Shown here piece after piece: positions 10,551 to 28,311 of a DNA stretch of 64,000 nt (position 1 is the stretch's first letter; the number at the start of each line of letters is the position of its first letter). The position numbers and the translations under genes were made by a program. A model generated the notes under the pieces. That model saw nothing but the letters and a program-made list of their open reading frames with translations. It was not told where the DNA came from and did no database searches. The DNA comes from Ornithinimicrobium sp. F0845 (GTDB taxonomy: Bacteria; Actinomycetota; Actinomycetes; Actinomycetales; Dermatophilaceae): positions 62,001 through 126,000 of the forward strand of contig NZ_JALKAL010000012.1 of the NCBI RefSeq assembly GCF_023015765.1. The letters run 5' to 3'.

Positions 10551-10675
10551 GGTCTCCTCCTCTGAGCGGCAGCGTGGCTACCAGCAGAATCACACCCGCG
10601 TGGCGAACCGACCTCCCCCTGGATGGGCGAGTTCGAGACCCATCCCCACGATGACGTGCCGCCAGGGTTGAGATA

Positions 10676-10692
10676 TCCCCCTCAACGGGTGA
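10676..10692 (+). promoter_or_regulatory. Palindromic operator, copy 1 (before DUF6325 operon)
   Basis: TCCCCC-TCAAC-GGGTGA, one mismatch from the consensus TCACCC-N5-GGGTGA. A -10-like TACGAT starts at 10,716, exactly 23 bp after the site, and the start codon is 75 bp downstream. The same geometry recurs at five other sites in the window. Confidence 0.6.
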
Positions 10693-10766
10693 GTCAGCCC
10701 GGATCGGTCCATTCCTACGATGACGAGGCAGGTCACTGAGCCGTCGACGAATGGGAGAAGCGAGAC

Positions 10767-11204
10767 ATGGATACCGTGGTAGGCCCCGTGGAGCTGGTGG
10801 TGCTGGCCTTCCCGGGCAGCAAGTTCAAGGGCGAGATCATCCCTGCCGTCGGCGAGTTGGTCGACAGCGGCGTGGTGTCTCTCCTCGACGTCGCCCTGGT
10901 CACCAAGGACGACGCCGGCGACACGCTGGCGATCGAGCTGGCCGATCTCGACGACGAGCTGCGGGGTGCCTTCGATACGTTGGACGGTGAGGTCAGCGGG
11001 CTGCTGAGCGATGAGGACCTCGGTCTCGTGGCCGAGGGTCTCGATCCCGGCACCACTGCTGCTGTCATCCTGTGGGAGAACACCTGGGCCCGAGGGCTCG
11101 TGAGCGCCATCCAGGGCGCGGGAGGCGTGCTTGTGGCGCACGAGCGCATGGACGCCGCACGTGCGGCAGAGGCGATCGCCTCCCTTGACAACGAGGAGGA
11201 GTAG
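10767..11204 (+). CDS. DUF6325 family protein
   Basis: 145 residues, soluble, starting with GPVELVVLAFPGSKFKGEIIPAVGEL, the signature of DUF6325. This family of unknown function is frequently found beside SHOCT proteins in actinobacterial stress clusters. A second half, TTAAVILWENTWARGLVSAI, forms the usual closing strand-helix. A GGGAGAAG Shine-Dalgarno precedes the ATG. It is first of three tightly spaced genes (3 bp to SHOCT, then 2 bp to DUF2254). The upstream palindrome with a fixed-distance -10 suggests activation as part of the stress regulon. Confidence 0.75.
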   Translation: MDTVVGPVELVVLAFPGSKFKGEIIPAVGELVDSGVVSLLDVALVTKDDAGDTLAIELADLDDELRGAFDTLDGEVSGLLSDEDLGLVAEGLDPGTTAAVILWENTWARGLVSAIQGAGGVLVAHERMDAARAAEAIASLDNEEE

Positions 11205-11207
11205 GAC

Positions 11208-11543
11208 ATGTTGATGCGCAGACCGGTCAGGGTTGGACGTCCCGGGCTCATCGGCACCGCTGCGAGGACGGCCGTCATCGCCGGCACCGCGAGCGCTGTG
11301 AGCGGGAACGTGGCACGGCGACAGCAAGCCAGGTCAGCACAGGCTCAGGAGGCACAGGCCTACGAGGCCCAGCAGGCAGCGGCTGCCGCTGCACCCCCGC
11401 CCCAGGCGGCGCCACCCCAGCCTGCGGCACCAGCTGGTCCGGACGTCATCGCCGAGCTGGAGCGCCTTGGTGCGCTCAAGAGTCAGGGGATCCTGACCGA
11501 GGCGGAGTTCGAGGCGCAGAAGGCACGCATCCTCGGATCCTGA
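11208..11543 (+). CDS. SHOCT domain protein
   Basis: 111 residues: a basic N-terminus, a short hydrophobic stretch (LIGTAARTAVIAGTASAVSG), a Gln/Ala/Pro-rich linker, and a C-terminal SHOCT motif (VIAELERLGALKSQGILTEAEFEAQKARIL). SHOCT is a short oligomerisation or docking module, usually at the end of stress-related membrane proteins. The gene is three bases after DUF6325, clearly one operon. Its likely role is a membrane-tethered adaptor; the partner is unknown. Confidence 0.8.
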   Translation: MLMRRPVRVGRPGLIGTAARTAVIAGTASAVSGNVARRQQARSAQAQEAQAYEAQQAAAAAAPPPQAAPPQPAAPAGPDVIAELERLGALKSQGILTEAEFEAQKARILGS

Positions 11544-11545
11544 CC

Positions 11546-12811
11546 GTGGAGGTGGGCGGTGGGCCAGAGGCCGTTCGCGAGACACACGCCACCGGGCAGC
11601 GTTCCCTGCGGGCGTGGCAGCGACGAGGGCGTGATCAGAACCTGCTTCAGGCGCTGAGGCACCGGCGGCGACTTCGCACTGGGATCGTCCAGGCTCTCTA
11701 CCTCATCGGAGGCACCACGCTCGGTGTCCTCCTGCCGGAGGTGGACGCCGGACCCACGATCGAACGCACCACGGTCACCCCGATGCTGTTCGGGGCCGCC
11801 GGCGGGTTCATCTCGTTCATCGCCCTGGTCTTCTCGCTGCTGTTCCTCGTCATCCAGTACGGCAACACGTCCGTGAGCCCACGGCTCACCATCTTCCGGG
11901 ACGACCCGATGGTCTGGCACACCTTCGGCTTCTTCACGGCGGTGTTCGCCTACTGCCTCGTCGCAGGGATGATCACCGGCACCGGCGATGACACGGTGAC
12001 GATCCTGGTCCCCGCCGTCGCCATCACTCTGCTCGTGGCCTCGTTGGCCATGTCACGGGCGATCCAGCTGCGCGCTCTGCGACTGCTGCAGTTCAACTCC
12101 ATCATGGAAGAGGTGAGGACGCGGGGGCAGGAGGTCATCACCTCGCTCTACAAGACCGCCTTCCACAGCGACGCCGCTGACCAGGCGGGGCCGCCGACTG
12201 CGTGGGAACTGCGGTGGCAGCGACCGACCACACTGCTCCTCCAGGTCGACCTGCCGAGGCTGCTCAGTCTGGCCACGGAGATGGACGTCCTCATCGAGTT
12301 GCGAGCGGTCCCTGGCCAGGAGGTGCGACGCGGCCTGGTGCTCGCTGTCGTCCGCGCCGACCATCCGGTCACCGAGTGCGACATCCTGGGCGCACTCACG
12401 ACCGGCAGCGACAGGGCCTTCGCGCAGGACCCGTTGCTGGCCTTCCGGCTGTTGAACGACATCTCCAACCGGGCCCTGTCGATCTCTATCAATGACCCAG
12501 CCACCTGCGTGCAGGTGCTGGGTTGCATCTACGACCTGCTCGCCCAGGTGGCTGACAAGCAACTGCAACTCGGCACCATCACCGATGAGAGTGGCGTGGC
12601 GAGAGTGCGGCTGCCGTTCCCCTCCTGGGAGGACTTCCTCGTGGTCGGCGTTGACGAGGTCGCGCACTACAGCACGCACGATCCCACGGTCCATGCCCGC
12701 GTGGAGTTGTTGTTGCAGGACCTGCTGGCGATCGCTCCACCGGAACGACATGCCCCGTTGCGCGAGCGCCTCGATCGACTGCTCGCCACCCCCACGGTCC
12801 CGCGCGCGTGA
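11546..12811 (+). CDS. DUF2254 family membrane protein
   Basis: 421 residues. Four hydrophobic helices lie in the first 180 residues (including GAAGGFISFIALVFSLLFLV and a second pair around VFAYCLVAGMITG). A large soluble C-terminal domain carries the DUF2254 hallmark ALSxxINDP (ALSISINDPATCVQVL). The family is uncharacterised. The GTG start at 11,546 is two bases after the SHOCT stop, so it is translated as the third gene of the operon; a later start cannot be excluded because the first 35 residues are poorly structured. Confidence 0.75.
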   Translation: MEVGGGPEAVRETHATGQRSLRAWQRRGRDQNLLQALRHRRRLRTGIVQALYLIGGTTLGVLLPEVDAGPTIERTTVTPMLFGAAGGFISFIALVFSLLFLVIQYGNTSVSPRLTIFRDDPMVWHTFGFFTAVFAYCLVAGMITGTGDDTVTILVPAVAITLLVASLAMSRAIQLRALRLLQFNSIMEEVRTRGQEVITSLYKTAFHSDAADQAGPPTAWELRWQRPTTLLLQVDLPRLLSLATEMDVLIELRAVPGQEVRRGLVLAVVRADHPVTECDILGALTTGSDRAFAQDPLLAFRLLNDISNRALSISINDPATCVQVLGCIYDLLAQVADKQLQLGTITDESGVARVRLPFPSWEDFLVVGVDEVAHYSTHDPTVHARVELLLQDLLAIAPPERHAPLRERLDRLLATPTVPRA

Positions 12812-12828
12812 CGGGAGGCGCCGAAGCT

Positions 12829-12845
12829 TCATCCGCAACGGGTGA
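12829..12845 (+). promoter_or_regulatory. Palindromic operator, copy 2 (before second SulP)
   Basis: TCATCC-GCAAC-GGGTGA, one mismatch from the consensus, ending 52 bp before the SulP start. Unlike the other copies, no xAnnnT hexamer lies 23 bp downstream, so this is the weakest member functionally. Confidence 0.4.
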
Positions 12846-12896
12846 TTTCGGTGCTAATCACTGTCCTGGGTCGGCACGCACTGTCACACTGGGGCC

Positions 12897-14555
12897 GTGA
12901 ATCTGTCTCAGACGACACGAGGCCTGCTGCCCGGCCTGCGGAAGGACAATCTCACCCAGGAGCTGATGGCCGGGGTGACTCTGCTGGCCATCGCCGTGCC
13001 CCTCAACATCGGTTACGCACAGATCGCGGGTCTCCCCCCGACGGCCGGTCTCTACGCGTTGGTCGTGCCCTCCATCGTGTTCGCGCTGATGACCTCCTCC
13101 CGCCAGCTGATCGCCTCACCCGACGCGGCAGCGGCTGCCCTGGTGGCGTCCTCCCTGCTTGGTCTCACGGTGGCAGGCAGCGACGACTACGCCGCGATGG
13201 CGGCCGCGCAGGCGATCCTGGGTGGAGTCTTCTTCCTGCTCTGTGCCTACTTCAAGCTCGGATTCCTGGCCAACTTCCTGTCCAAACCCATCCTCATCGG
13301 GTTCGTGGGTGGACTGGCGGCGGAGATCATGCTCAGTCAGGCCGCCAAGATGCTGGGCGTCCAGACCGAGGGTGAGGGCTTTTTCGTCGAGGTCATCGAT
13401 CTCATCACCAAGATCCCTGACGCTCACCTCTGGTCGGTCGTCGTGAGTGCTGCCTCCCTCGCCGTGCTGCTGCTCGGACGACGGATTCCGGCCGTGCCCT
13501 GGGCCCTCATCGTGCTGGTAGCGGCGACCATTCTGACCGTCGCGCTGGGCCTGGCTGAGCGGGGGGTCGCGGTCCTGGGTGAGGTCCCTGCCGGTCCACC
13601 CCGGTTCGCACTCCCGGTCCTCGACTGGTCGATCTGGCTGGCGCTCATCCCCTCGGCGCTCGCCCTGACCATGGTGACCGTCGCCGAGGGCCTGCTGGTG
13701 ATCCGCTCCTACGCGGAGAAGAATGACTATCCCACCGACCCGAACCGCGACCTGGCGGCCTTCGGCGCCGCCAACGTCGCTGCGGGTGTCTCCAGCTCGT
13801 TCACCGTCGGGTCCTCGACATCACGCACGGCAGCGATGGACCAGACCGGGTCGCGCACGCAGCTGCCGACCCTGGTGATGGCGGTGGGTAGCCTCCTCCT
13901 GCTTCTGTTCGGCACCGCGCTCCTCGCCGACATCCCCTCCCCGGCGATCGGGGCCATCGTCGCCGTCGCGGTGCTCAAGCTGCTGGGCGTCGGCGAGCTC
14001 CGTGAGCTGTGGCGGCTCTCGAAGTTCGAGTTCGCCGTCGCCCTCACCTGCTTCCTCGGCGTCCTGGTCCTGGGTCCCATCCGTGGCATCCTCCTCGCGT
14101 TCGTGATCTCGCTGGTCAACCTGGCCCAGCGATCGGCCAACCCGCCCGTCGACGTCCTCCACGGAGACCTGGACCCCCAGGTCTCGCTGCAGGAGGCGGC
14201 TGAGGGCGGTGAGACGGCGCCCGGGGTCGTCATCATGCGGTTCGCAGCACCCGTCTTCTTCGCCAACAGCGGGGTCCTGAGCAGCACGGTGCGCTCCATG
14301 GTCGCCGACGCACCCAACCCCGTCGAGGCCTTCGTGTTCGACCTCGAGGCCGTGACGGATGTCGATGTCACCGGCGCGGAAGCGTGGGACGGCACCCTCA
14401 CCTGGCTCCGCGACCAGCAGATCACCGTGGCCTATACCCGCGTCCGACCCGAGCTGCGGGGCCAGCTGGAGCACTTCGGGCTGTTCGAGGACGTCACCGA
14501 GTTCCCCACGAGCCGCGCCGCACTGGCCGCGCTCCGCCAGGACGGCGCGGGCTGA
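12897..14555 (+). CDS. SulP family transporter with STAS domain (probable sulfate/anion permease)
   Basis: 552 residues from GTG. SulP core: LMAGVTLLAIAVPLNIGYAQ, then GLPPTAGLYALVVPSIVFAL, about 10-12 membrane segments. The C-terminal STAS domain starts near residue 440 (VIMRFAAPVFFANSGVLSSTV ... AFVFDLEAVTDVDVTGAEAW). The gene is immediately upstream of the arylsulfatase-FGE operon, so handling of sulfate released by the sulfatase is a natural guess, though export, import or bicarbonate transport cannot be separated. It is preceded by a weak copy of the regional palindrome. Confidence 0.9.
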   Translation: MNLSQTTRGLLPGLRKDNLTQELMAGVTLLAIAVPLNIGYAQIAGLPPTAGLYALVVPSIVFALMTSSRQLIASPDAAAAALVASSLLGLTVAGSDDYAAMAAAQAILGGVFFLLCAYFKLGFLANFLSKPILIGFVGGLAAEIMLSQAAKMLGVQTEGEGFFVEVIDLITKIPDAHLWSVVVSAASLAVLLLGRRIPAVPWALIVLVAATILTVALGLAERGVAVLGEVPAGPPRFALPVLDWSIWLALIPSALALTMVTVAEGLLVIRSYAEKNDYPTDPNRDLAAFGAANVAAGVSSSFTVGSSTSRTAAMDQTGSRTQLPTLVMAVGSLLLLLFGTALLADIPSPAIGAIVAVAVLKLLGVGELRELWRLSKFEFAVALTCFLGVLVLGPIRGILLAFVISLVNLAQRSANPPVDVLHGDLDPQVSLQEAAEGGETAPGVVIMRFAAPVFFANSGVLSSTVRSMVADAPNPVEAFVFDLEAVTDVDVTGAEAWDGTLTWLRDQQITVAYTRVRPELRGQLEHFGLFEDVTEFPTSRAALAALRQDGAG

Positions 14556-14557
14556 TT

Positions 14558-14574
14558 TCACCCGGCTTGGGTGA
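14558..14574 (+). promoter_or_regulatory. Palindromic operator, copy 3 (before sulfatase operon)
   Basis: Perfect inverted repeat TCACCC-GGCTT-GGGTGA, three bases after the SulP stop. TAGCGT, a -10-like hexamer, starts at 14,598, 23 bp after the site. A separate 10-bp palindrome GCACTAGTGC (14,651-14,660) lies in the predicted leader. Confidence 0.65.
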
Positions 14575-14676
14575 CACGCTCCCGCCCTGAGCGAATCTAG
14601 CGTTGCAAGGGTCAGAGTCACGCTCGCCCCCAGCTCCATGCGTGGCGTGAGCACTAGTGCACGGGAAGAGGACGCC

Positions 14677-16176
14677 ATGGCCGACCAGCCGAACATCCTG
14701 ATCATCTGGGGAGATGACATCGGGATCACCAACCTGAGTTGCTACTCCGACGGCCTCATGGGCTATCGCACCCCCAACATCGACCGGATCGCGGAGGAGG
14801 GTGTCCGGTTCACCGACTACTACGGCGAACAGAGCTGCACCGCTGGCCGCGCCGCCTTCATCACGGGCCAGAACCCCTACCGCACCGGCCTGACCAAGGT
14901 CGGGATGCCCGGCGCCGACATCGGGCTGCGTGCCGAGGATCCCACAATCGCCACAGCGCTCAAGGCCCACGGCTATGCGACCGGGCAGTTCGGCAAGAAC
15001 CACTTCGGCGACCGGGACGAGTTCCTCCCGACCGCCCACGGCTTCGACGAGTTCTTCGGCAACCTCTACCACCTGAACGCCGAGGAGGAGCCGGAACTCC
15101 GTGACTATCCCTCTGAAGAGGACTTCCCCGGCTTCCATGAGCAGTACGGGCCGCGCGGCGTCATCCGCTCGTGGGTCAATCCCGACGGCACCCAGCGGAT
15201 CGAGGACACCGGGCCGCTGACCAAGGAGCGCATGAAGACCTGCGACGAGGAGTTCCGCGACGCGGCCGTCGACTTCATGAACCGCCAGCACGAGTCAGAC
15301 ACGCCCTTCTTCCTGTGGTTCAACTCCACCCACATGCACTTCCGCACGCACATCCGAGACGAGGACAGGGAACGGGCCGGTCGGTGGCAGTCGGAGTACC
15401 ACGATGCGATGTGCTACCACGACGACATCGTCGGCGAGCTCCTGGACAAGCTCGACGAGCTCGGCATCGCCGACAACACGATCGTCATATACTCCACGGA
15501 CAACGGGCCGCACATGAACTCCTGGCCCGATGCCGGGATGACCCCCTTCCGCAACGAGAAGAACTCCAACTGGGAGGGGGCCTACCGGGTCCCCTGTGCG
15601 GTGCGCTGGCCCGGCCACGTCCCCGAGGGAACCGTGCTCAACGGCATCGTCAGCCACAACGACTGGTTTGTCACCCTGCTTGACGCGGCCGGCACTCCTG
15701 ACATCGCAGACCAGCTGAAGGCGGGAGCCGACCTCAACGGCACGACATACAAGGTCCACCTCGACGGGCACAACCAGCTGCCCTACATCACCGGCCAGGC
15801 CGATGAGAGTCCTCGCAGGCACTACTTCTATGTCTCGGATGACGGCGACCTGACCGCCCTGCGGTTCGACAACTGGAAGATCATGTTCATGGAGCAGCGC
15901 GCCACCGGGACGCTCCAGGTGTGGGTCGACCCCTACGTGGAGCTCCGCGTTCCCAAGATCTACAACCTGCGCACCGACCCCTTCGAGCGTGCGGACATCA
16001 CGTCGAACAGCTACTACGACTGGATGCTCGACCACGTCTTCCTGCTCGTGCCGGCGCAGGCCTACGTCGCCAAGATGGCACAGACGCTCGCCGAGTTCCC
16101 CGTCCGCCAGGAGCCCGCTGCCTTCAACCTCGAGAAGGTGATGGAGAAGCTCAAGGCGGGCGTGCTGAGCGCGTGA
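14677..16176 (+). CDS. Type I arylsulfatase (cytosolic)
   Basis: 499 residues. Sulfatase fold: metal-binding ILIIWGDDIGITN (Asp13, Asp14), the C-x-A-x-R maturation motif CTAGR with Cys54 as the residue converted to formylglycine, and the metal-ligand stretch YSTDNGPHMNSWPD. It hydrolyses a sulfate ester; the substrate is unknown. There is no signal peptide, so it should act in the cytosol unless exported otherwise. The ATG at 14,677 has a GGAAGAGG Shine-Dalgarno and starts the conserved fold; the in-frame ATG at 14,638 adds 13 unconserved residues. The next gene is its activating enzyme, overlapping by four bases. Confidence 0.92.
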   Translation: MADQPNILIIWGDDIGITNLSCYSDGLMGYRTPNIDRIAEEGVRFTDYYGEQSCTAGRAAFITGQNPYRTGLTKVGMPGADIGLRAEDPTIATALKAHGYATGQFGKNHFGDRDEFLPTAHGFDEFFGNLYHLNAEEEPELRDYPSEEDFPGFHEQYGPRGVIRSWVNPDGTQRIEDTGPLTKERMKTCDEEFRDAAVDFMNRQHESDTPFFLWFNSTHMHFRTHIRDEDRERAGRWQSEYHDAMCYHDDIVGELLDKLDELGIADNTIVIYSTDNGPHMNSWPDAGMTPFRNEKNSNWEGAYRVPCAVRWPGHVPEGTVLNGIVSHNDWFVTLLDAAGTPDIADQLKAGADLNGTTYKVHLDGHNQLPYITGQADESPRRHYFYVSDDGDLTALRFDNWKIMFMEQRATGTLQVWVDPYVELRVPKIYNLRTDPFERADITSNSYYDWMLDHVFLLVPAQAYVAKMAQTLAEFPVRQEPAAFNLEKVMEKLKAGVLSA

Positions 16177-18070: not shown

Positions 18071-18080
18071 CCCGCACCGT

Positions 18081-18281
18081 TCACTCCTCGGGGATCGTCA
18101 CGACGTCGATGACCGTGACGCCCAGAGAGTGCAGCAGGTTGAGGATCCCCTGAAGTTCTTCCTGATCGGTGAGGTCACCGACCATGGTGGTCTGCGCACG
18201 CTGGGTTCGTCGGACGAGGTGTGGAAAGGCTTCACCGAGTTCGTCCGAGATCTCACCATCCACCCGGATCAGTAGCCTCAT
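18081..18281 (-). CDS. Conserved small hypothetical protein (66-67 aa)
   Basis: A compact acidic protein beginning MRLLIRVDGEISDELGEAF and ending LHSLGVTVIDVVTIPEE. It has a beta-alpha-beta pattern (LLIRVDG, TTMVGDLTDQEEL, VTVIDVVTI) that I recall as a widespread uncharacterised actinobacterial small protein. The start is ATG 18,281 or GTG 18,284. It is convergent with the HAD gene, ten bases away. Its promoter region faces the MscS gene promoter. Confidence 0.6.
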   Translation of the reverse strand: MRLLIRVDGEISDELGEAFPHLVRRTQRAQTTMVGDLTDQEELQGILNLLHSLGVTVIDVVTIPEE

Positions 18282-18364
18282 CACGCTGCACCCTTCACTG
18301 CGCTAGGTTCCCCGGCGAGTGTGTCCGAGGCTTGTGACGCTAGCCCACGGCGGCCCGCAGCGGC

Positions 18365-18381
18365 TCACCGGAATTGGGCGA
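18365..18381 (+). promoter_or_regulatory. Palindromic operator, copy 4 (before mscS)
   Basis: TCACCG-GAATT-GGGCGA, two mismatches but symmetric with the consensus. GATGCT, fitting xAnnnT, starts at 18,405, again 23 bp downstream. Start codon 60 bp after the site. Confidence 0.5.
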
Positions 18382-18440
18382 GGCCGACACCAGCGTTCTC
18401 AGAGGATGCTCGGAGCAGCACGTCACCGGGAAGGGATGTC

Positions 18441-19298: not shown

Positions 19299-19325
19299 CC
19301 CTGACGGCACCACGACCCGGACACC

Positions 19326-22013
19326 TCACAGCAGGTTAAGCTTGCGAGCCGTCGCCAGAGCCTCACTGCGGCGCTTGGCCGAGAGCTTGACGTAGACGTT
19401 GGACACGTGCGTCTTGACCGTGTTCTCGCTCACGAACAGGTTCCTCGCGATGTCGGCATAGGTCGCCCCGCGGGCAAGTTCGCCGAGCACTTCCTGCTCC
19501 CGAGGACTGAGCGAGGGAGCAACCACGAGCTCATCGACCGAGCCCAGCTCCTGGGCCGTTGCGACGCGCGGACGCATGGAGGCGGCGATGCCCGCACTGC
19601 TGGCGCATGCCGCGCTGAGGTCGCGCGTCCAGGTGGTCCTGGTCCGGTGCAGGTCCTTGAGCAGGGAACCGACAGCGGTCCCGTGCGTGCTCCAGCCCAG
19701 GAAGGGGGTGACATCACCGCGCTGTTCAGCCAGGACGAGTGCCGCCTCAAGCAGACTCCTGGCTCGGTCCTGGTCTCCCCGGTAGTGGTAGAGCTGCGCG
19801 GCGCAGACCATGCTGGTCTCCCGGACGGACGGCTGCCGCACCGTGACCGACCGACTCGCCGCCTCATAGAGGTCGGCAGCACGCCGAACGTCCCCCTGGA
19901 GGTCTGCGAGGGCGGCCTCGGCCCAGAGGCTCTCACCGGTCGCCCCGCCGCGACGGAAGTCGCGCGAGGCTTCGCGGAGATGCTCCTGATCAAGGGTCAG
20001 GATGCTCAGTCTCGCCTGTTCGACCAGGAAGCCCCTCTTCAGGTGCTGCGGCAGGCCGAGACTCTCCGGAGAACGTTGAAGGAAGGACTGCGCATCCGCG
20101 ATCGAACCCTGCAGGAGGGCCGTGCGCGCGAGCAGCATGCGCCGCCAGAACCGGCCTGCGAGATCATCGACCACGGCGCTGTTGATGAGTTCGCCCACCA
20201 CAGCTGCAGCCGGGCGCTCGGCGGATTTCGGCTCCTCACCGTCGGCATCCGGCCGTGGCAGTGACTGCAGCCGCACGAGTGCACGCACAACCTCGGCCCG
20301 TGCAGCCACAGGTGAGTCGGGCTCTCCGGTGAGGGCCACCCCGGAGAGCACCTGTTCGGCCAGATCATGGGCTGCCCGGTCGCGTGACGCCATGAACTCG
20401 GTCAGCGCCAGGTGTGACCTCGCCTCGTGAGCGAGGCTGTCCAGCTGGGCGGCCTGACACTCGAGCACTGCTCGGTTGAGGTGCTCCTCGGCGTGCTTCA
20501 GGTCACCAGCCCAGTTCTCGATCACCCCCATCTCCAGCAGCACCAGTGGGAGGAAGTGCTCGTGCGCAGGGTGGGTGGCGTCGTCAGCGATCACCGTGCG
20601 GGCATGCTCCAGTGCTGACTCGCCAGACTGCGCACCCAACCGCGCCAACAGTAGACGCACACACGTCGTGTGCAGAGGTGAGATCGATCCCGGATGCGCG
20701 GCGTCATGGGCCAGAAGACGTTCGGCCCAGTGGACCGCGCTGGCCCGCTCCCCCCGGAGCCGCATGGCACAGGCGATGGTGGCCCAGGCGTGCGGCTGTT
20801 CGTCGACGGCACCGCCGCTGTGTGCCACGAGTTGGTCGAGAATTCGCCCGTCCTCCAGGGCCAGCACCTGCGGCCCATGGGTCGCGACGACCTCCGCGGC
20901 CGCCTCGTGGTCCCCGATCGCGAGAAGCCGCCGTAGGCCAGCCTCGACCTGCCCCTGCCCCAGTTGGAGCCGGACCGCACGCAGCACGGTGGAGCGGGCC
21001 AGCTGGACGTCGACCCCACCCGCAGCGAGGCGCCGCCGAGCCAGCTCAGCCATGAGGGGATGCAGACGGAACCGGGTAGCGACGCTTGAGTCATCCTCGG
21101 GGAACGGCCCCTCAGAGACCCGATAGACCAGAAAGCCGGTCCTCTCCAACGCCGAGAGCACCTCGCCGGCGCGTGGGTCTCGGGTCAGCTCCGTGGCGGA
21201 GGCGACCGTAACAACTCCCTCCATGGCGGTGCAGAGCAGGAGGTGCCTCTCGCGAGGCTGAAGTCCCGCGAACACCTCCTGCGCAACCAGGCCGGTCACC
21301 TCCATGCTCGAGCTGCGGAAAGCGCGCACAAACTCCGCCTCGTCCCGTGCAAGGGCACCGGCTCGGGCCGCCAGGACGACTGCCGCGCACCATCCGTGGG
21401 CGCGCTCCATGATGACCTGGCGAATGGCCGCAGCCCGCGACTGTGCATGGATCAGGATGAGCGACGCCGCCTCGCTGTCACTCAGCCTGAGCGCATCCCC
21501 GCGGATGACCGTGAGGTGTCCGAGCAGCTCGGGAACCAACCGGCTGATCGCCAGGTCCCATCTGGCCAGAAGGAGGAGCCGCATCGAGTGCGGCTCGCGG
21601 TTGAGACGCTGCTCGATCTGGCGAACGCAGGGTCCCGGAAGCAGGTGGGCGTCGTCGATCACGACCAGTTGAGGCGACGAAGCAGACTCCCCCGCAGCTG
21701 CCTCCAAGGCGCGCTCCAAGGACCTCAGACTGCAACCATTGCTCGCGTCCAGCCAGATCGCATGCTCCCCGGTCTCGCGGTGCTGAAGCCATCCGGCGAC
21801 CCCCATCGTCTTTCCAGCTCCAGCAGGGGCGACCACCATCGTCACGGCCGCCGACGTGGCGCTGTCGAGAAGGCTCCAGAACTTTGTCCGCTGCACGTAG
21901 GCGCGCGGAAGCCAGGGGGACCCCGCCGTGGGCGGGCGGGGAGGGAACTCGCCGTTCTCGCTGGCGAGCGCCGCGTCCGGTGGTTCTTCAGCCAGGTTTT
22001 CTGTCGTCGACAT
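19326..22013 (-). CDS. LAL-type (MalT-like) LuxR family regulator 1
   Basis: 895 residues. An N-terminal STAND-type ATPase has a P-loop VVAPAGAGKT near residues 60-69 and a Walker B-like LVVIDDAHLL. A long TPR-like helical region carries the sensor part, and the C-terminal LuxR HTH (LSPREQEVLGELARGATYADIARNLFVSENTVKTHV) binds DNA. Family members switch on when an inducer and ATP cause multimerisation. The ATG at 22,013 has a strong GGGGAGG Shine-Dalgarno; upstream in-frame codons to 22,274 are rejected. It sits inside the set of genes carrying the palindrome and is one of two candidate regulators. A three-copy repeat lies upstream at 22,281-22,350. Confidence 0.9.
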   Translation of the reverse strand: MSTTENLAEEPPDAALASENGEFPPRPPTAGSPWLPRAYVQRTKFWSLLDSATSAAVTMVVAPAGAGKTMGVAGWLQHRETGEHAIWLDASNGCSLRSLERALEAAAGESASSPQLVVIDDAHLLPGPCVRQIEQRLNREPHSMRLLLLARWDLAISRLVPELLGHLTVIRGDALRLSDSEAASLILIHAQSRAAAIRQVIMERAHGWCAAVVLAARAGALARDEAEFVRAFRSSSMEVTGLVAQEVFAGLQPRERHLLLCTAMEGVVTVASATELTRDPRAGEVLSALERTGFLVYRVSEGPFPEDDSSVATRFRLHPLMAELARRRLAAGGVDVQLARSTVLRAVRLQLGQGQVEAGLRRLLAIGDHEAAAEVVATHGPQVLALEDGRILDQLVAHSGGAVDEQPHAWATIACAMRLRGERASAVHWAERLLAHDAAHPGSISPLHTTCVRLLLARLGAQSGESALEHARTVIADDATHPAHEHFLPLVLLEMGVIENWAGDLKHAEEHLNRAVLECQAAQLDSLAHEARSHLALTEFMASRDRAAHDLAEQVLSGVALTGEPDSPVAARAEVVRALVRLQSLPRPDADGEEPKSAERPAAAVVGELINSAVVDDLAGRFWRRMLLARTALLQGSIADAQSFLQRSPESLGLPQHLKRGFLVEQARLSILTLDQEHLREASRDFRRGGATGESLWAEAALADLQGDVRRAADLYEAASRSVTVRQPSVRETSMVCAAQLYHYRGDQDRARSLLEAALVLAEQRGDVTPFLGWSTHGTAVGSLLKDLHRTRTTWTRDLSAACASSAGIAASMRPRVATAQELGSVDELVVAPSLSPREQEVLGELARGATYADIARNLFVSENTVKTHVSNVYVKLSAKRRSEALATARKLNLL

Positions 22014-22336
22014 TGAGCCTCCCCACGAACTCCACCCTTTCGCGCCGGCCCGGATGGAGGCCGCCTCTGAACGAGATGGTGTGTCCAGACAACCAGCATG
22101 CCGGAGATCGGCGCTCTTCGCCTCACCCCGCCGGGGCGACTCTGTGCACCGGGACGCCCGGCACTGTGCGGCCCCCTGCGCGGGCATCTGTTGGATCCCA
22201 GGCCTGGTCACCGAGAAAGCACCCACTCCCGGGTGAGTCGCCTGGGTTCTACCCGGTGCTGCAGAAACACTCACAGCGATACGAGCACGTCAGGGGTGCG
22301 CCACACAAGCACATCAGGAGTGGCGACACGAACACA
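22014..22336. promoter_or_regulatory. Upstream region of LAL regulator 1
   Basis: 323 bp without a convincing gene. It holds a GCACCC-ACTCCC-GGGTGA element (22,219-22,236), like the regional palindrome but with a 6-bp spacer, and a tandem repeat at its far end. No -10 at the usual 23-bp distance was seen for this variant. Confidence 0.4.
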
Positions 22337-22350
22337 TCAGGAGTGCGATG
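22281..22350. repeat. Three tandem copies of a 23-24 bp repeat
   Basis: Copies start at 22,281, 22,305 and 22,328. The shared core is ACGARCACRTCAGGRGTG, imperfectly conserved. The period (24, then 23 bp) is close to two helical turns, so bound proteins would sit on the same face. The third copy overlaps the 3' end and stop codon of the DUF6069 gene; all three lie upstream of LAL regulator 1. Confidence 0.7.
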
Positions 22351-22783
22351 TGCTGCGCGCGACCGCCGACACGAGCGTATAGATCGCGATGCCGAGCACA
22401 CCGTTGAGGGTGGCGGTCGCGAGTTTCGCGTCGAGGTCCACGTCCAGGCTCAACGGCAGGACGACGCCGATCACGGTCACCAGGCCGACGATCCACCCAA
22501 AGAACCGCATCGGCCGTGGGGTGGTCCGGACCAGCAGGTGGGCGAGCGCCGTGGCCAGCAGCGTCGCGAACGCCGCCGCTCCGGCATATCCCATCAGCGA
22601 GGCGTTCCCCCACACCCCCGCTCCTTCCGGAGCGAGGATCGGGATGCCGAGGACACCCCTGATCAGCAGGATGCCGGTCACGGCAACCAACAGGGCGACC
22701 AGCGCCGCAGCGGCTCCGCCCATCCACAGCCGTGCCGCGTCGACCGAGCGCGGTCTCGATCCGGACGCCGTGGGATAGCTCAT
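22337..22783 (-). CDS. DUF6069-like small membrane protein
   Basis: 148 residues with about four hydrophobic helices (LWMGGAAAALVALLVAVTGILL, YAGAAAFATLLATALAHLLV, FFGWIVGLVTVIGVVLPLSL, TLNGVLGIAIYTLVSAVARS), matching the four-helix architecture of DUF6069. Function unknown. ATG 22,783 has a GAGGAG Shine-Dalgarno; longer frames run into the divergent promoter region. Its promoter region carries palindrome copy 5, with CAGGGT 23 bp downstream on the minus strand. The C-terminal end overlaps the last copy of the tandem repeat. Confidence 0.65.
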   Translation of the reverse strand: MSYPTASGSRPRSVDAARLWMGGAAAALVALLVAVTGILLIRGVLGIPILAPEGAGVWGNASLMGYAGAAAFATLLATALAHLLVRTTPRPMRFFGWIVGLVTVIGVVLPLSLDVDLDAKLATATLNGVLGIAIYTLVSAVARSTSHS

Positions 22784-22866
22784 GGTGACTCCTCGTGCTC
22801 GTGCCGAAGACCTCAGCGAAGAAGACTGACGGTCCCGACCCTGCGGCACCCCTGTCACCCGACGCC

Positions 22867-22883
22867 TCCCCCACCCCGGGTGA
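22867..22883 (-). promoter_or_regulatory. Palindromic operator, copy 5 (before DUF6069)
   Basis: Read on the plus strand: TCCCCC-ACCCC-GGGTGA. In the minus direction CAGGGT (plus 22,843-22,838) fits xAnnnT at the 23-bp spacing, 84 bp upstream of the DUF6069 start. Confidence 0.5.
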
Positions 22884-22961
22884 CCTTCCTGCGCGCCTGC
22901 TGGGTGACTGCGCCACCGCTCCCGGTGCCGCAGCATGGGCCATCAGGTGGCGTCCGGCCGT

Positions 22962-22978
22962 TCACCAGGAATGGGTGA
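22962..22978 (+). promoter_or_regulatory. Palindromic operator, copy 6 (before DUF1269)
   Basis: TCACCA-GGAAT-GGGTGA. CAGAGT (23,002-23,007) fits xAnnnT at the 23-bp spacing. The start codon is 68 bp beyond the site. Confidence 0.55.
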
Positions 22979-23045
22979 GGCAGCCACCGTGCGTGCCGTT
23001 CCAGAGTGGGATCAACATCAACCGATCCACCTGAAGGAGAGAACC

Positions 23046-23540
23046 ATGGCACAGCCAACGCTGACCGTCTGGAAGTTCGACTCACCCGATGGCGCACACC
23101 AGGCGTCCGAGACCCTGCAGGCGCTCGGCCGTGAGAACGTCGTGACGATCCACGATGCCGCAGTCGTGTCCTGGCAGGATGAGGCCAAGAAGCCGAAGAC
23201 GAAACAGCTCACCTCGACGACGGCAGCCGGTGCTCTGGGAGGGACCTTCTGGGGCATGCTCTTCGGACTCATCTTCTTCGTCCCGCTCCTGGGAGCCGCC
23301 GTCGGGGCAGCGACGGGCGCCCTCAGCGGATCACTCACGGATGTGGGCATCGACGACTCGTTCATCAACAAGGTGCGCGATCAGGTCACCCCCGGAACCT
23401 CCGCCCTGTTCGTCATGACCTCGGATGCCGTCATCGACAAGGTGCGGGACGCCTTCACCGATCAGCAGCCCCACCTCATCTTCACCAACCTGACGCACGA
23501 CCAGGAGGCGGCACTCCGCCTTGTTTTCCAGGACGAGTGA
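23046..23540 (+). CDS. DUF1269 family membrane-associated protein
   Basis: 164 residues. An N-terminal ferredoxin-like half (LTVWKFDSPDGAHQASETL ... VTIHDAAVVSW), then a glycine-rich double helix hairpin (GGTFWGMLFGLIFFVPLLGAAVGAATGALSG), then GIDDSFINKVRDQVTPGTSALFVMTSDA: the DUF1269 layout. The family has no proven role but occurs widely in stress regulons of actinobacteria. A good AAGGAGAG Shine-Dalgarno precedes the ATG. Expression is likely driven by palindrome copy 6. The gene is divergent from DUF6069. Confidence 0.82.
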   Translation: MAQPTLTVWKFDSPDGAHQASETLQALGRENVVTIHDAAVVSWQDEAKKPKTKQLTSTTAAGALGGTFWGMLFGLIFFVPLLGAAVGAATGALSGSLTDVGIDDSFINKVRDQVTPGTSALFVMTSDAVIDKVRDAFTDQQPHLIFTNLTHDQEAALRLVFQDE

Positions 23541-23617
23541 GGTGACCAAGCCAGGCAAGGCGTGCGAGGACGAGGTCAGCGGACGAAAGCGGATTCCGGT
23601 GGGCAACAGCGCTCGTC

Positions 23618-23674
23618 GTGAGTAGGCAGACTCCGCGGGTGTTGCCTGGGCAATAGCCTGTGTTGTGAGTAGGC
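23618..23674. promoter_or_regulatory. Direct and inverted repeats before LAL regulator 2
   Basis: GTGAGTAGGC occurs at 23,618-23,627 and again at 23,665-23,674, 47 bp apart. Between them is the near-palindrome TTGCCTGGGCAA (23,642-23,653). The second copy ends seven bases before the start codon, so a protein bound here would block initiation; autoregulation is possible. Confidence 0.45.
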
Positions 23675-23681
23675 TGCGCGA

Positions 23682-26315
23682 ATGTTGTCCGACTCTCCGG
23701 GGGACCGCGCCTTCGTCACACCCGCCAGGCTGCGCGTCCCGAGCCTCTCCCAGGTGCTGGTCGGCCGCGACCGCCTGGTGGAGAAGGCGATCGGACACCG
23801 CCGCGTCACCCTCGTCTGTGCGCCGGCCGGCGCTGGCAAGACCCTCCTCCTGGCCGACTGGGCCACCCGCGCGCAGGCCCGGGCGGAGTCGGTGGCGTGG
23901 CTGTCCCTGGAGCCGCTCCTCGACCGGCCCTACGAGTTCTGGTCGGCGGTGATCGAGGCGCTCATGGTCTCCGGCCCCGAGACCGAGACCGCTCGGCTCG
24001 ATGCCCTGAGCCCACCCAGGAACGGCGTCGAGCCCAGGTTCATCACCGCCCTGATCGACGTCGTGGTCGAGTGGGGATCGGCCTGCCTGGTGCTCGATGA
24101 CGTGCACGTGCTGCAGGACGAGGACGTGCTGGCCGGCCTTGACGTCCTGCTCACACAGGCACCTGCCCAGTTCAGAGTCGTCATGGCAGGCCGATCTGAG
24201 CCAACGGTCTCGCTCCACCGTCTGCGCCTGGACGCATCGCTCGCCGAGGTCGTCAGCACCGATCTCGTCTTCACCGAGGCTGAGGCGGCCGACCTCTTCG
24301 CTGCGCTGGGGACCCGCCTCAACTCCTCCGAGGTGGCGCGTCTGGTCGCTCGAACTGAAGGGTGGGCAGCAGGTCTGCGACTTGCCGCCACGTCGGTCGA
24401 GGGGACAGAGAGCCCAGCGGCGTTCATCGCGGCCTTCGAAGGAGACCATCGAGCGGTCGCCGACTACCTTTTCGCCGAGGTGATCCAGCATCTCGCGGAG
24501 GACCTGGTCGAGTTCCTGCGAGCCACCTGCGCCCCCGAGGAGATCTCCGTCGAGCTGGCGGCACACCTGTCCGGGCGCGAGGACGCAGGAGAGCTGCTGG
24601 ACCGCCTGTGTCGGAGCAACGCCCTCGTCGTCCAGGCCGGCGAGTCGTCCTGGTACCGCTACCACAGCCTGCTGCGTGGCTATCTCATGGCGGCCCTCCG
24701 GGGCCACGACGTCGACGCTCCACGCAGGCAACATCTCGCGGCTGCTCACTGGTTCGACCGGCACGACGAGCCGACGGTCGCCCTGACCCACGCCGCACAG
24801 GCAGCTGACGACGACCTGATCGGATCGCTACTCCGCAGGCACGGGCTGCGCATGGTCCTGTCCGGGCGGAGCGGTCTGATCCTGGACGCACTCGGGGACC
24901 GACCGAGTGCCCCTCTCTTGGCCGATGAGTCTGTGCGGGTCGCCGCTGCTCTGGCCGCACTCGATGTCGGTGATCTCGCCGCGACTGACCAGTGGCTGTC
25001 GAGGTTGGCGGTCACTCCCAGCACCTCCGACCCGCGGCTCGTCGCGATGCGGGCCTCGGCGATCGTCCAACGCGCCTTGCTGGGCGGTGACGTCGAGGGT
25101 GCACTGACCACCACCGGCATTCTTGATCTGGCAGAGACCGGCGAGGGGGACGTGGACCTGATCATGCTCGCCTACCGTGCGCCGGCCCGGATTCGCACGG
25201 GTGACTACCAGGGTGTCCTCCACGATCTTGAGCGAGCCCTGGCGCTGGCCCGCGCACATCGATACGACCAGTTCGTCCTGTGGACGTTGGCGCAGATGGC
25301 GGGGATCACCGGCGCGATCTGCGACATCCGCGCCTCTCGGGAGTGGGCAGAGTTGGCGATCGCGTTTGCGGAGCGCCGAGGCTGGGCGGACTCGCCCAGG
25401 CTCGCCTATGCCTACCTCATGGCGTCCTGGAGCTCGTTCCAGACCGGGGACCACGAGGCCCAGGCTCGGCATGCCGAGAACGGGCTCCTCGCCCTGGACG
25501 GAGTGAACAACGTCGAGGTGGAGGTCGGGGTCCGGTCCATGCACGCGGTCGCCACGTTTGAGGCCTCGTCCGGTCCAGAACGGCGAGCCGCTGCTCAGCA
25601 GATGCACGCCATCTGGGACGACCCGCTGGTCGACCAGGTGTCGCCCGCGCTCGTCAGCCAGGCGACACCGCAGGAGATCCGCCTCGCGCTCGGCGTCGGT
25701 CACCCCGAGTGGGCGGAGGTTGCTGTCGCGAGGATCCAGGAGCGGATGCCCGACACCGCAGAGGGTGCCGCCGCGCGGGCACAGCTGCTCACTGCCAAGG
25801 GCCGGGTCCGGGACGCGCTGATGGTCCTGTCGCCGGTGCTCGCGGGATCGCTCCCCGCGCACGCGCCGACAACGCTCGTCCATGCCCAGGTGCTCGCCGC
25901 GGGGCTCGAGGCTACGCAGGGCAACGATCACCGGGCATTTGACGCGGTGCGGGCCGCCCTCGACTGGTCTGCGCCCCAGAGCTACGTCCGGCCGTTCATG
26001 GACGCCTGGGCGGACATCGAGGCCGTGCTCGCGAGGCACCGAGGCCGGTTCGGGGCCGAGGAGTCCTTCGTCACCCACCTGTTCGAGCACCACGGGCCCC
26101 GGGACACCGGCCCCGCCCTGACGCAGACCCTGAGCACCCGGGAGCTCGAGGTGCTGCGGGATCTCCCCTCACTGCTGACGGTCAGTGAGATCGCCGAGGC
26201 CGAGGCGGTCAGCAGGAACACCGTCAAGTCCCATATCCGCTCCATCTATCAGAAGCTGGGCGTCGACAGTCGATCGGCAGCCGTGCGAGAGGCTCGCGAC
26301 CGCGGCCTCCTGTGA
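23682..26315 (+). CDS. LAL-type (MalT-like) LuxR family regulator 2
   Basis: 877 residues. P-loop CAPAGAGKT at residues 46-54, Walker B LVLDDVHVL near 130, the STAND arginine-containing MAGRSEP segment, winged and TPR-like regions through the middle, and a C-terminal LuxR HTH (LSTRELEVLRDLPSLLTVSEIAEAEAVSRNTVKSHIRSIYQKL). The domain order is as in LAL regulator 1, but the sequences are clearly diverged. It is expected to be a signal- and ATP-dependent transcription activator. It lies between DUF1269 and the AI-2E gene, within the palindrome-bearing gene set. The signal is unknown. The start is ATG 23,682. Confidence 0.9.
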   Translation: MLSDSPGDRAFVTPARLRVPSLSQVLVGRDRLVEKAIGHRRVTLVCAPAGAGKTLLLADWATRAQARAESVAWLSLEPLLDRPYEFWSAVIEALMVSGPETETARLDALSPPRNGVEPRFITALIDVVVEWGSACLVLDDVHVLQDEDVLAGLDVLLTQAPAQFRVVMAGRSEPTVSLHRLRLDASLAEVVSTDLVFTEAEAADLFAALGTRLNSSEVARLVARTEGWAAGLRLAATSVEGTESPAAFIAAFEGDHRAVADYLFAEVIQHLAEDLVEFLRATCAPEEISVELAAHLSGREDAGELLDRLCRSNALVVQAGESSWYRYHSLLRGYLMAALRGHDVDAPRRQHLAAAHWFDRHDEPTVALTHAAQAADDDLIGSLLRRHGLRMVLSGRSGLILDALGDRPSAPLLADESVRVAAALAALDVGDLAATDQWLSRLAVTPSTSDPRLVAMRASAIVQRALLGGDVEGALTTTGILDLAETGEGDVDLIMLAYRAPARIRTGDYQGVLHDLERALALARAHRYDQFVLWTLAQMAGITGAICDIRASREWAELAIAFAERRGWADSPRLAYAYLMASWSSFQTGDHEAQARHAENGLLALDGVNNVEVEVGVRSMHAVATFEASSGPERRAAAQQMHAIWDDPLVDQVSPALVSQATPQEIRLALGVGHPEWAEVAVARIQERMPDTAEGAAARAQLLTAKGRVRDALMVLSPVLAGSLPAHAPTTLVHAQVLAAGLEATQGNDHRAFDAVRAALDWSAPQSYVRPFMDAWADIEAVLARHRGRFGAEESFVTHLFEHHGPRDTGPALTQTLSTRELEVLRDLPSLLTVSEIAEAEAVSRNTVKSHIRSIYQKLGVDSRSAAVREARDRGLL

Positions 26316-26417
26316 GTCGCCCTGTCCCTGGACCCAGGCGCAGTATGACGACTGACTGAGATCCGGTGCCCGGGCCGCTGACCTGCCGCGGCCCACTGTG
26401 ATCAAGGGCGCCAGGGA

Positions 26418-27605
26418 TCAATGGCGCCAGGGCATGAAGCGGCTCACGCCCGTGGGTTTGGGTGGTGCGTCGGGGACGTCGGCAGGCTTCGGAACGGGTG
26501 CCGGTGGCACCAGGACGTCTGCCAGCACCTCGTACTTCCGGGTATAGATCTCCAGGAGGGCCAGGATCAGGGCCGCGGTCGGCACGGCGACAAAGGCGCC
26601 GGGGATCCCAAAGAGGGCCGCGCCCAGCATGACTGACCCGAAGGAGATCGCGGGGTGGACGTGGACCGCGCGGGAGCTGATCCGCGGGTCAAGGATGAGG
26701 TTCTCGACCTGCTGATAGAGCGTGGCGAAGATGAGGACGAACAGCCCCTGGATCGGCCGGTCACCGACCAGCCCGATGAACACCGGCAGCGCAATCGCGA
26801 TGTAGGTGCCGACGGTGGGCACGAACTGTGCCACGACGCCGGTCCAGATGCCCAGTGGCAACCAGTAGGGCATGTCGATCAGCAGCAGGAAGACGGCGGT
26901 CGCCGTCGCCGAACACGCAGCCAGGGTCATGCGGGCCGCGATGTAGCCACCGGTCTTGGTGATGGCCAGGTCCCACACCGTCGCGACCACCTCCTGCTGC
27001 GCCGGCGGGAAGAGGCGCGAGAGCCACCGACGCAGACGCGGGGCGTCCGCCGAGAGGTAGTAGGTGAAGAACGCGAAGGTGAAGACCGAGAAGAAGCTCC
27101 CGACCAGTGTGGCGACGAAGCTCAGCAGTCCGCCCGCGACACTCGCGGCCACCCCGCCGAGGTCCAGCGGGCCACCCAGCAGATCCACCAGCCGGTCCGT
27201 GTCGACATACTGCGAGAGCAGCTGGTTGAGCTGGTCCACATAGCCCGGGATGCTCGCGGCGAACAACCTGATCTGCTCGGCCAGCATGCCCCCGAAGAGG
27301 TACAGAAAGATCGCGCCGGCGACCACCAGCGAGAACATCACCACCAGGGTGGCCCAGCCACGCGACATACTGCGCGACACCCGGTTCACCGCGGGCTCCA
27401 GCGCGAGGCTGGCGGCCCAGGACATCACGATCGTGCCCAGGACAGAACTGGCCTCGTCGAAGACGAACAGCAGCAGCCGGACGAGCAGGAATACCGCGAC
27501 GACGGTCCAGGCGACCTGCCAGACGTTGCGCCGGTCCAGGAGGACGGTCCTGCGCGGGCCGGGCGGGGTCGACGCCGTGTCGACCCCGCTCTGCCCGCCT
27601 GCCAC
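26418..27605 (-). CDS. AI-2E family transporter
   Basis: 395 residues with about eight membrane segments and the family features: an N-terminal pair of helices (VWQVAWTVVAVFLLVRLLLFVF), a long periplasmic loop after residue 105, SFFSVFTFAFFTYYLSADAPRLRRWL, and the C-terminal LLGIPGAF-like LGAALFGIPGAFVAVPTAALI. Members export autoinducer-2 or act as Na+/H+ antiporters; the substrate is not assignable here. GTG start at 27,605, three bases after the HdeD-like gene, so probably the second gene of that operon. The C-terminal tail is proline-rich. Confidence 0.85.
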   Translation of the reverse strand: MAGGQSGVDTASTPPGPRRTVLLDRRNVWQVAWTVVAVFLLVRLLLFVFDEASSVLGTIVMSWAASLALEPAVNRVSRSMSRGWATLVVMFSLVVAGAIFLYLFGGMLAEQIRLFAASIPGYVDQLNQLLSQYVDTDRLVDLLGGPLDLGGVAASVAGGLLSFVATLVGSFFSVFTFAFFTYYLSADAPRLRRWLSRLFPPAQQEVVATVWDLAITKTGGYIAARMTLAACSATATAVFLLLIDMPYWLPLGIWTGVVAQFVPTVGTYIAIALPVFIGLVGDRPIQGLFVLIFATLYQQVENLILDPRISSRAVHVHPAISFGSVMLGAALFGIPGAFVAVPTAALILALLEIYTRKYEVLADVLVPPAPVPKPADVPDAPPKPTGVSRFMPWRH

Positions 27606-27608
27606 GCC

Positions 27609-28163
27609 TCAGCCCCCCGGTGTGGCGGGGCTGGGCTCCAGCGGGGCCAGCCGGAGCCGACCAGCCAGGATCATGGTGACGCCCTCGACCAGGACCTGGA
27701 TGCCCAGCAGGGTGCCGAGCAGGGTCAGGGTCGCCGTCCCGGGGTTGAACAGGATCCACAACCCCAGCACGACGGACACCGCGCCGCTGAAGATCAACAG
27801 TGCACGTTTGTTCTCCTGGTCGAACGCCAGGAAGATCCGCACCAGACCGGTGGCCAGGAACATCGCTGCGGCGGTCATGGTGAGGGCCGCCGCGCTGGCG
27901 CCGAGGTTGCGCAGCATGATCAGCCCGAGCACCCCGAGCGCGACGCCACCGAGCAGGATCGACCAGGAGAAGTCCGACCTGATCCGGAGGAGGCCCGCCA
28001 CGAGCATGGCTACCCCGCCCAGCAGCACACACCATCCGATGAGAACCACGGACACGGCGGTCGCCAGCACCGCGTTCCCCAGGATGACCAACGATCCGAT
28101 GACGAGCAACGCGCCCAGGGCGATGTCCCACCCTGTCCTACTTCTCTGCAGCACCTCAGTCAT
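27609..28163 (-). CDS. HdeD-like (DUF308) membrane protein
   Basis: 184 residues, about six hydrophobic helices in three repeating pairs, the DUF308 arrangement of E. coli HdeD, an acid-resistance membrane protein. The ATG at 28,163 follows a good AGGAG; an upstream start at 28,187 adds eight residues. Palindrome copy 7 lies 75 bp upstream, and on the minus strand TAGGGT (plus 28,214-28,209) is exactly 23 bp beyond it, so this gene and the divergent one at 28,312 probably share one operator. Confidence 0.8.
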   Translation of the reverse strand: MTEVLQRSRTGWDIALGALLVIGSLVILGNAVLATAVSVVLIGWCVLLGGVAMLVAGLLRIRSDFSWSILLGGVALGVLGLIMLRNLGASAAALTMTAAAMFLATGLVRIFLAFDQENKRALLIFSGAVSVVLGLWILFNPGTATLTLLGTLLGIQVLVEGVTMILAGRLRLAPLEPSPATPGG

Positions 28164-28237
28164 GTGGAGCTCCTCGTGACTCTGCACCCGGTGCCTCCGG
28201 GATGTTCGACCCTAAACGGGCCCGGCGCCCTCAGAGG

Positions 28238-28254
28238 TCACCCGGTCAGGGTGA
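28238..28254. promoter_or_regulatory. Palindromic operator, copy 7 (shared by divergent promoters)
   Basis: Perfect inverted repeat TCACCC-GGTCA-GGGTGA. TACGCT starts 23 bp to its right (28,278), and TAGGGT lies 23 bp to its left on the opposite strand. This two-way symmetry is the best support that the site acts at a fixed distance from the -10. Confidence 0.7.
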
Positions 28255-28311
28255 TCCTGGCTCCGTCCGCCGGAAAATACGCTGCCGGGAAGGCAATGGG
28301 AGGTGTCGTAG

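Follow-up and report, generated by a model that had tools for sequence, protein, structure and literature searches.

A palindromic operator at a fixed distance from a -10-like hexamer, probably of LAL-type activators, in Ornithinimicrobium and other Actinomycetota

Regulators of the LAL group are described as a poorly studied family (PMC3282765). Their type member, MalT of Escherichia coli, joins an ATPase, a TPR region and a LuxR helix-turn-helix (HTH) domain, and the MalT box, GGA[TG]GA, acts as direct repeats (PMC9628970, PMC6099782). The LAL activator TpdR of Rhodococcus jostii TMP1 controls a catabolic operon, with a 15-nt direct repeat, TnnAAnnGCGGAnTC, as its proposed site (PMC6099782), and SCO6993 of Streptomyces coelicolor binds short palindromes as well as its own promoter and acts negatively on antibiotic regulators, with no consensus predictable by its authors (PMC9628970). 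A palindrome of the kind treated here is known from a regulator of another type, BldM of Streptomyces venezuelae, an orphan response regulator with developmental targets whose Group I operator, TCACcCgnncGgGTGA, measures 16 bp with a four-base (N4) spacer (PMC4125116). Here we analysed 64,000 nucleotides of the genome of Ornithinimicrobium sp. F0845 (the window), in which an island at 10.6-28.3 kb carries repeated copies of the palindrome TCACCC-N5-GGGTGA beside two genes for LuxR/LAL-type regulators, LAL1 and LAL2.

Each described system shares part of this arrangement and departs from it elsewhere. The half-sites TCACCC/GGGTGA are common to the BldM Group I operator and the window, but the window sites span 17 bp with an N5 spacer, and a LAL is an ATPase whereas BldM is a response regulator. 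MalT has the same domain make-up, and its box resembles GGATGA, a variant half-site of the present operators; however, it uses direct repeats, whereas the present sites are inverted repeats at a fixed distance from a -10 element with membrane genes as targets. TpdR is likewise an actinobacterial LAL activator but differs in its direct-repeat site and catabolic operon, and SCO6993 is likewise a LAL on palindromes but differs in its lack of a consensus and its negative action on antibiotic regulators. Searches of an open-access library turned up no description of an N5 operator with LALs. The initial annotation of this stretch knew of no regulon with the motif, which needs amending for the half-site: the operator and regulon of LuxR/LAL type appear to be new, and the half-site was already known from BldM. 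We propose that the palindrome is very probably the operator of an activator of the LAL class, here most likely LAL2, that switches on mostly membrane and envelope genes.

The initial annotation had listed seven palindromes with zero to two mismatches (10676, 12829, 14558, 18365, 22867, 22962 and 28238), two of them perfect, with an xAnnnT hexamer starting exactly 23 bp past the site in six of the seven, absent at 12829 and present in both directions at 28238; our recount of the window agrees throughout. The sites and the genes that they face, followed by the two regulators and a recurrent small protein, are as follows.

10614-10630, minus strand: operator with two mismatches; GATTCT at 10586-10591, 22 bp away; faces SfLAP (ATG 10550, minus strand; Pfam)
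10676-10692, plus strand: operator with one mismatch; TACGAT at 10716-10721, 23 bp away; faces DUF6325-SHOCT-DUF2254 (Pfam); on its minus arm CATCGT at 10648-10653, 22 bp away, is directed towards SfLAP as well
12829-12845, plus strand: operator with one mismatch; no hexamer at 22 or 23 bp; faces SulP (GTG 12897; Pfam)
14558-14574, plus strand: perfect operator; TAGCGT at 14598-14603, 23 bp away; faces sulfatase (ATG 14677 likely)-FGE-HAD (Pfam)
18365-18381, divergent: operator with two mismatches; plus arm with GATGCT at 18405-18410, 23 bp away, towards MscS (ATG 18441 likely); minus arm with TAGCGT at 18337-18342, 22 bp away, towards the small open reading frame (ORF) at 18081-18284
22123-22139, minus strand: operator with one mismatch; CATGCT at 22095-22100, 22 bp away; faces LAL1
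22867-22883, minus strand: operator with one mismatch; CAGGGT at 22838-22843, 23 bp away; faces DUF6069 (ATG 22783; Pfam)
22962-22978, plus strand: operator with one mismatch; CAGAGT at 23002-23007, 23 bp away; faces DUF1269 (ATG 23046 likely; Pfam)
28238-28254, divergent: perfect operator with hexamers at 23 bp on both arms; plus arm with TACGCT at 28278-28283 towards the gene at 28312-28938, which has no Pfam match; minus arm with TAGGGT at 28209-28214 towards the HdeD-like DUF308 gene (ATG 28163 likely) and an AI-2E transporter (Pfam)
19326-22013, minus strand: LAL1, a regulator of LuxR/STAND type whose start was reassigned to ATG 22013 (Pfam on the longer frame, NCBIfam)
23682-26315, plus strand: LAL2, a regulator of LuxR/STAND type and the most likely candidate for the cognate activator
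18081-18284, minus strand: small ORF whose family has no name in Pfam or NCBIfam and is found repeatedly next to LAL genes; its fold is predicted to be ferredoxin-like

The palindrome by itself is only modestly rare in the window: at up to two mismatches there are 13 copies, the six beyond the earlier seven lying at 9177, 10614, 18054, 22123, 25700 and 54531; shuffles average 6.2 copies, with 2 of 100 attaining 13. At up to one mismatch, seven sites have a spacer of 5, and each of twelve other spacers (0 to 12) yields 0-3. The combination with the hexamer is far more distinctive. With 23 bp as the post hoc choice of the initial annotation and 22 bp taken from relatives, the island holds 14 hexamers at these distances in the 22 oriented flanks of 11 palindromes (up to two mismatches), and the same pattern in 200 dinucleotide shuffles gave 0.185 hexamers on average and never more than 2. 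Ten of the 14 clearly face a gene, the eleventh (10676, minus) is the second one towards SfLAP, and three (18054 both ways; 22123 plus) have no clear gene ahead and may be chance occurrences. The exact spacing of 23 bp thus stands for the sites originally listed and fails as a rule, since the distance is 22 or 23 bp both in relatives and in the window; the promoters noted earlier likewise hold, in a list that lacked 10614 minus (SfLAP), 22123 minus (LAL1) and 18365 minus (the small ORF). Near the SulP site (12829-12899), CACACT at 12885-12890 lies 6 bp ahead of the GTG, so that a leaderless start is possible there.

The evidence that carries the proposal comes from 79 loci (1.55 Mb) retrieved with an alignment of four LALs as the similarity query, the motif playing no part in the choice; they represent the best 80 of at least 591 stretches, and before the search three of the four query LALs had a perfect or one-mismatch motif nearby and the fourth a two-mismatch copy. 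Exact TCACCC-N5-GGGTGA occurs 24 times in 18 of the 79 loci, whereas 29 other letter orders of the half-site gave 0-4 copies and other spacers (0 to 12) 0-1. Allowing one mismatch raises the count to 105 sites, spread over 50 loci, against 0-13 for permuted half-sites and 3-14 for other spacers. Of the 210 oriented flanks, 60 have the hexamer at 22 bp and 36 at 23 bp, compared with 0-10 at other offsets (0 to 44), and each site counted once, 84 of the 105 have it at 22 or 23 bp. Only 16 of the 105 sites fall in coding interiors, which make up 66% of the sequence (this count and the downstream genes below come from our own ORF picker, whose starts are unsure). Sites number 0.405 per kb in the 0.5 kb next to LAL ends and 0.025 per kb at more than 5 kb from them. 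The palindrome is not equally common inside genes, nor is the motif with its spacing equally common in shuffled sequence, and the scan of the own genome and relatives that the initial annotation called for gave the palindrome in excess over reversed, permuted and other-spacer controls. At the level of sequence, the comparison supports the motif, its spacer, the distance to the hexamer, the linkage to the LAL class and an operator that differs between clades with the recognition helix.

The layout of these sites resembles that of a class II-type activator site, which abuts the place of the -35 element in promoters lacking one. Hexamers lie 22 or 23 bp off, and no -35-like columns were found between site and hexamer in the LAL-locus sites; beyond these elements, conservation is most marked for a G two bases past the site and, in the 23-bp class, for A and C at positions 10-11. 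In the proposed mechanism, two LAL GerE/LuxR HTH domains would occupy the half-sites TCACCC and GGGTGA, five bases apart. With the hexamer starting at -12, this operator would be centred near -43/-44 and end where a -35 would begin, so that the bound activator would take over the missing -35 role and recruit RNA polymerase to the weak -10 (xAnnnT) in a class II-like manner. This geometry agrees with the earlier suggestion that the site, centred near -44, replaces an absent conserved -35, and the loci chosen independently of the motif strongly support a shared class II-like activator site at a fixed distance from the -10. We infer that the regulator binds the site in dependence on ATP and a signal, that it activates and does not repress, and that it serves an envelope-stress role; one signal would then switch on LAL1, the small ferredoxin-fold protein and a gene set made up mainly of membrane and envelope functions.

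We next consider the two regulators. LAL2 has the features expected of a LAL: an N-terminal ATPase (AAA_22, E 1.2e-7, residues 39-172), a MalT-like TPR region (TPR_MalT, E 1.8e-6, residues 696-785, under the Pfam cut-off at 27.9 of 45 bits) and a C-terminal LuxR/GerE HTH (GerE, E 9.6e-13, residues 815-871 of 877). In the comparison with MalT itself, the NCBIfam MalT equivalog gave 241 bits, below its cut-off of 537. In a quick-method tree, LAL2 and the site-adjoining LAL of Occultella glacieicola form a group with support 100; the branch of LAL1 is very long and its placement unsure. This makes LAL2 the likelier cognate regulator. The earlier suggestion to test the HTH domains of both LALs for binding thus points to the class that is the best candidate, within which LAL2 ranks above LAL1. 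An activator made of LAL1, or of LAL1 and LAL2 jointly, is rather unlikely from the tree, although the GerE HTH is common to both, an operator precedes LAL1 while LAL2 has none of its own in the window at up to two mismatches, and several relatives have two or three LALs beside the sites.

The link to the LAL class extends to the recognition helix. Among sites of the form TCACCN-N5-NGGTGA, the 59 loci with helix TVK (or TIK) have 35 sites, whose 70 half-sites carry C 57, T 6, A 6 and G 1 at position 6, and the 12 loci with N or S for K have 15 sites, whose 30 half-sites carry G 13, C 8, A 7 and T 2; eight of the 79 loci, with other, mixed or unread helices, were left out of this count. In the N/S loci each of the 15 sites is followed by the hexamer at one of the two distances, 22 or 23 bp. 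For C versus G at position 6, K versus N/S gives a Fisher p of 1e-8, ignoring descent. Six Chloroflexota and Pseudomonadota loci with related LALs (112 kb) contained no one-mismatch site, in genomes that differ otherwise too.

In the own genome (4.2 Mb) there are three perfect palindromes, two in the island and the third, on contig C1 at 33585, between a sulfatase gene and an FGE homologue 55% identical to the window FGE. Pattern scans with the hexamer, here and in the genus, covered the 23-bp distance only. At up to one mismatch, seven of ten matches fall in the island (five sites, two matched both ways), and at up to two there are 31 matches against 9 for the reversed control. The bare palindrome at up to one mismatch occurs at 23 places, 7 of them in the island, against 5 for the control. 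We inspected the context of 9 of the 16 one-mismatch sites outside the island, naming genes there by resemblance judged by eye. The palindrome at C1:117482 precedes a DUF1254-like gene and is followed at 23 bp by TAGATT; the one at C12:6215 is followed, at the same distance, by AAGACT, which faces a PfpI/DJ-1-like gene; C1:168458, with no hexamer at 22 or 23 bp, precedes a gene resembling a site-bearing membrane gene of another genus genome (G022). At least three outside sites lie within picked ORFs and look like chance. A second LAL island (C12:516000-535999; FGE, LAL3, SHOCT-like, sulfatase) has no palindrome at up to one mismatch; ahead of its FGE stands a divergent two-mismatch site of the type TCACGC-N5-TGTGA with TACGGT at 23 bp.

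Across 31 genomes of the genus, three contain the palindrome together with the hexamer at 23 bp, and all three are among the five with a LAL2 match (E ≤ 1e-30). Eight LAL loci from four genus genomes and the own genome include two with one-mismatch sites, L048 (one, at 1422) and L051 of G022 (two, both with the hexamer at 23 bp and directed away from the LAL). Another genome (G005), without a LAL2 match at this threshold, has two perfect N5 palindromes 3.7 kb apart (C1:3170001 and 3173736), possibly another island.

The window target families recur behind such promoters in other genera. From 96 promoter arms in the LAL loci, 24 without a picked gene, 72 rows remained, which after removal of two repeats and one ORF of more than 1000 amino acids left 69 ORFs. 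Their Pfam families, in the first 25 of 51, include DUF1269 (6), DUF7144, STAS and GerE (4 each), sulfate permease, MFS and DUF6325 (3 each), and SfLAP, AI-2E, DUF6069, DUF308, DUF2252 and sulfatase (2 each). For homologues of the window genes in the 79 loci we counted promoter places upstream (up to two mismatches) and loci with a homologue, as raw counts: DUF6325, 4 places and 5 loci; DUF1269, 9 and 19; SfLAP, 2 and 4; DUF6069, 2 and 3; SulP, 3 and 7; sulfatase, 3 and 4; FGE, 1 and 1; HdeD-like, 4 (3 sites) and 3; the small protein, 5 and 6; LAL2, 10 and 79; SHOCT, 0 and 6; AI-2E, 0 and 2; MscS, 0 and 1; LAL1, 0 and 54. No homologue of the window DUF2254, HAD or 28312 gene was listed in these loci. 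On a Rhodococcus plasmid, SulP (63.5% identical) and DUF1254 genes surround a LAL with two perfect sites, one of them before SulP and 22 bp from TAAATT. The shared theme of the targets is membrane and envelope proteins. The earlier description as a stress regulon holds for a shared site over a membrane and envelope gene set, and the word stress draws on gene content.

The small-protein family, about 70-90 residues long, was found in most LAL loci surveyed for it and adjoins LALs both within and outside the motif class (e.g. L049 11563-11805 and L054 11696-11953). Pfam gave a weak match in one of 45 members (E 0.0076) and none for the window member, and NCBIfam no match for the two members tried. 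The predicted fold of the protein is beta-alpha-beta-beta-alpha-beta (pLDDT 88), and the structures in the Protein Data Bank that match it are general ferredoxin-like folds, including ACT, Lrp-type and PII-like domains. Proteins of this family may be partners of LALs in general, and a role as sensor or partner is our guess.

Several observations weigh against the proposal. Within the genus, 18 of the 31 genomes contain a bare perfect palindrome, none has a match of the reversed control, and just 5 have a LAL2 match (E ≤ 1e-30); the palindrome is thus not confined to the matched genomes, which counts against the proposal in its simplest form. No one-mismatch site is present in six of the eight genus and own-genome LAL loci or in 29 of the 79 loci chosen by similarity. 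Wrong-spacer sites (n = 96, 192 flanks) still show 6 and 6 hexamers at 22 and 23 bp, and neither the perfect palindrome at C1:33585 nor the second perfect Rhodococcus site, in the LAL/DUF1254 interval, has a hexamer at these distances. The N/S-helix loci form one clade (support 100), so the link between helix and operator may reflect a single switch. Finally, BldM uses the same half-site (PMC4125116). It is nevertheless very unlikely that a BldM-like atypical response regulator binds the palindrome and that the LALs merely adjoin its targets. N4 palindromes of the BldM Group I type are indeed frequent in the genus (26 of 31 genomes, some identical copies being common to several), and some genus genomes that lack a LAL2 match have N5 palindromes as well, but the spacer is wrong: no N4 site at up to one mismatch exists in the window, and in the 79 LAL loci N4 is at background (1 exact and 8 one-mismatch copies, versus 24 and 105 for N5). 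In addition, the sites crowd at LAL genes and the operator varies with the LAL helix. The N4 copies make a second system with the same half-site probable in the genus, and N5/LAL and N4/BldM look like two systems sharing one half-site alphabet.

We also regard it as improbable that the sites are repressor operators or act in both senses. Geometry alone is no proof of activation, but the site stops at the point where a -35 would start, leaving the hexamer uncovered, -35-like columns are absent, and the hexamers are weak. A chance conjunction of GC-rich palindromes and loose hexamers, which the count of window palindromes at just about twice the shuffle mean might suggest, is hardly credible, being refuted by the permutation, spacer and shuffle controls.

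Returning to the LAL-class activator, the wider picture would be an envelope-response system throughout Actinomycetota, to which we give about even chances: LAL activators acting on an N5 operator 22 or 23 bp from the -10, with K versus N/S in the helix going with position 6, the small ferredoxin-fold protein as sensor or co-regulator, and targets including DUF1269, DUF6325, SulP, SfLAP, HdeD-like, DUF6069 and sulfatase/FGE proteins. If the proposal is true, a defined operator and a fixed promoter geometry would make the targets of the whole LAL class readable from genome sequence, and several membrane families of unknown function would be joined in one predicted regulon. The helix residue and the operator base offer a swap pair for a direct test of specificity.

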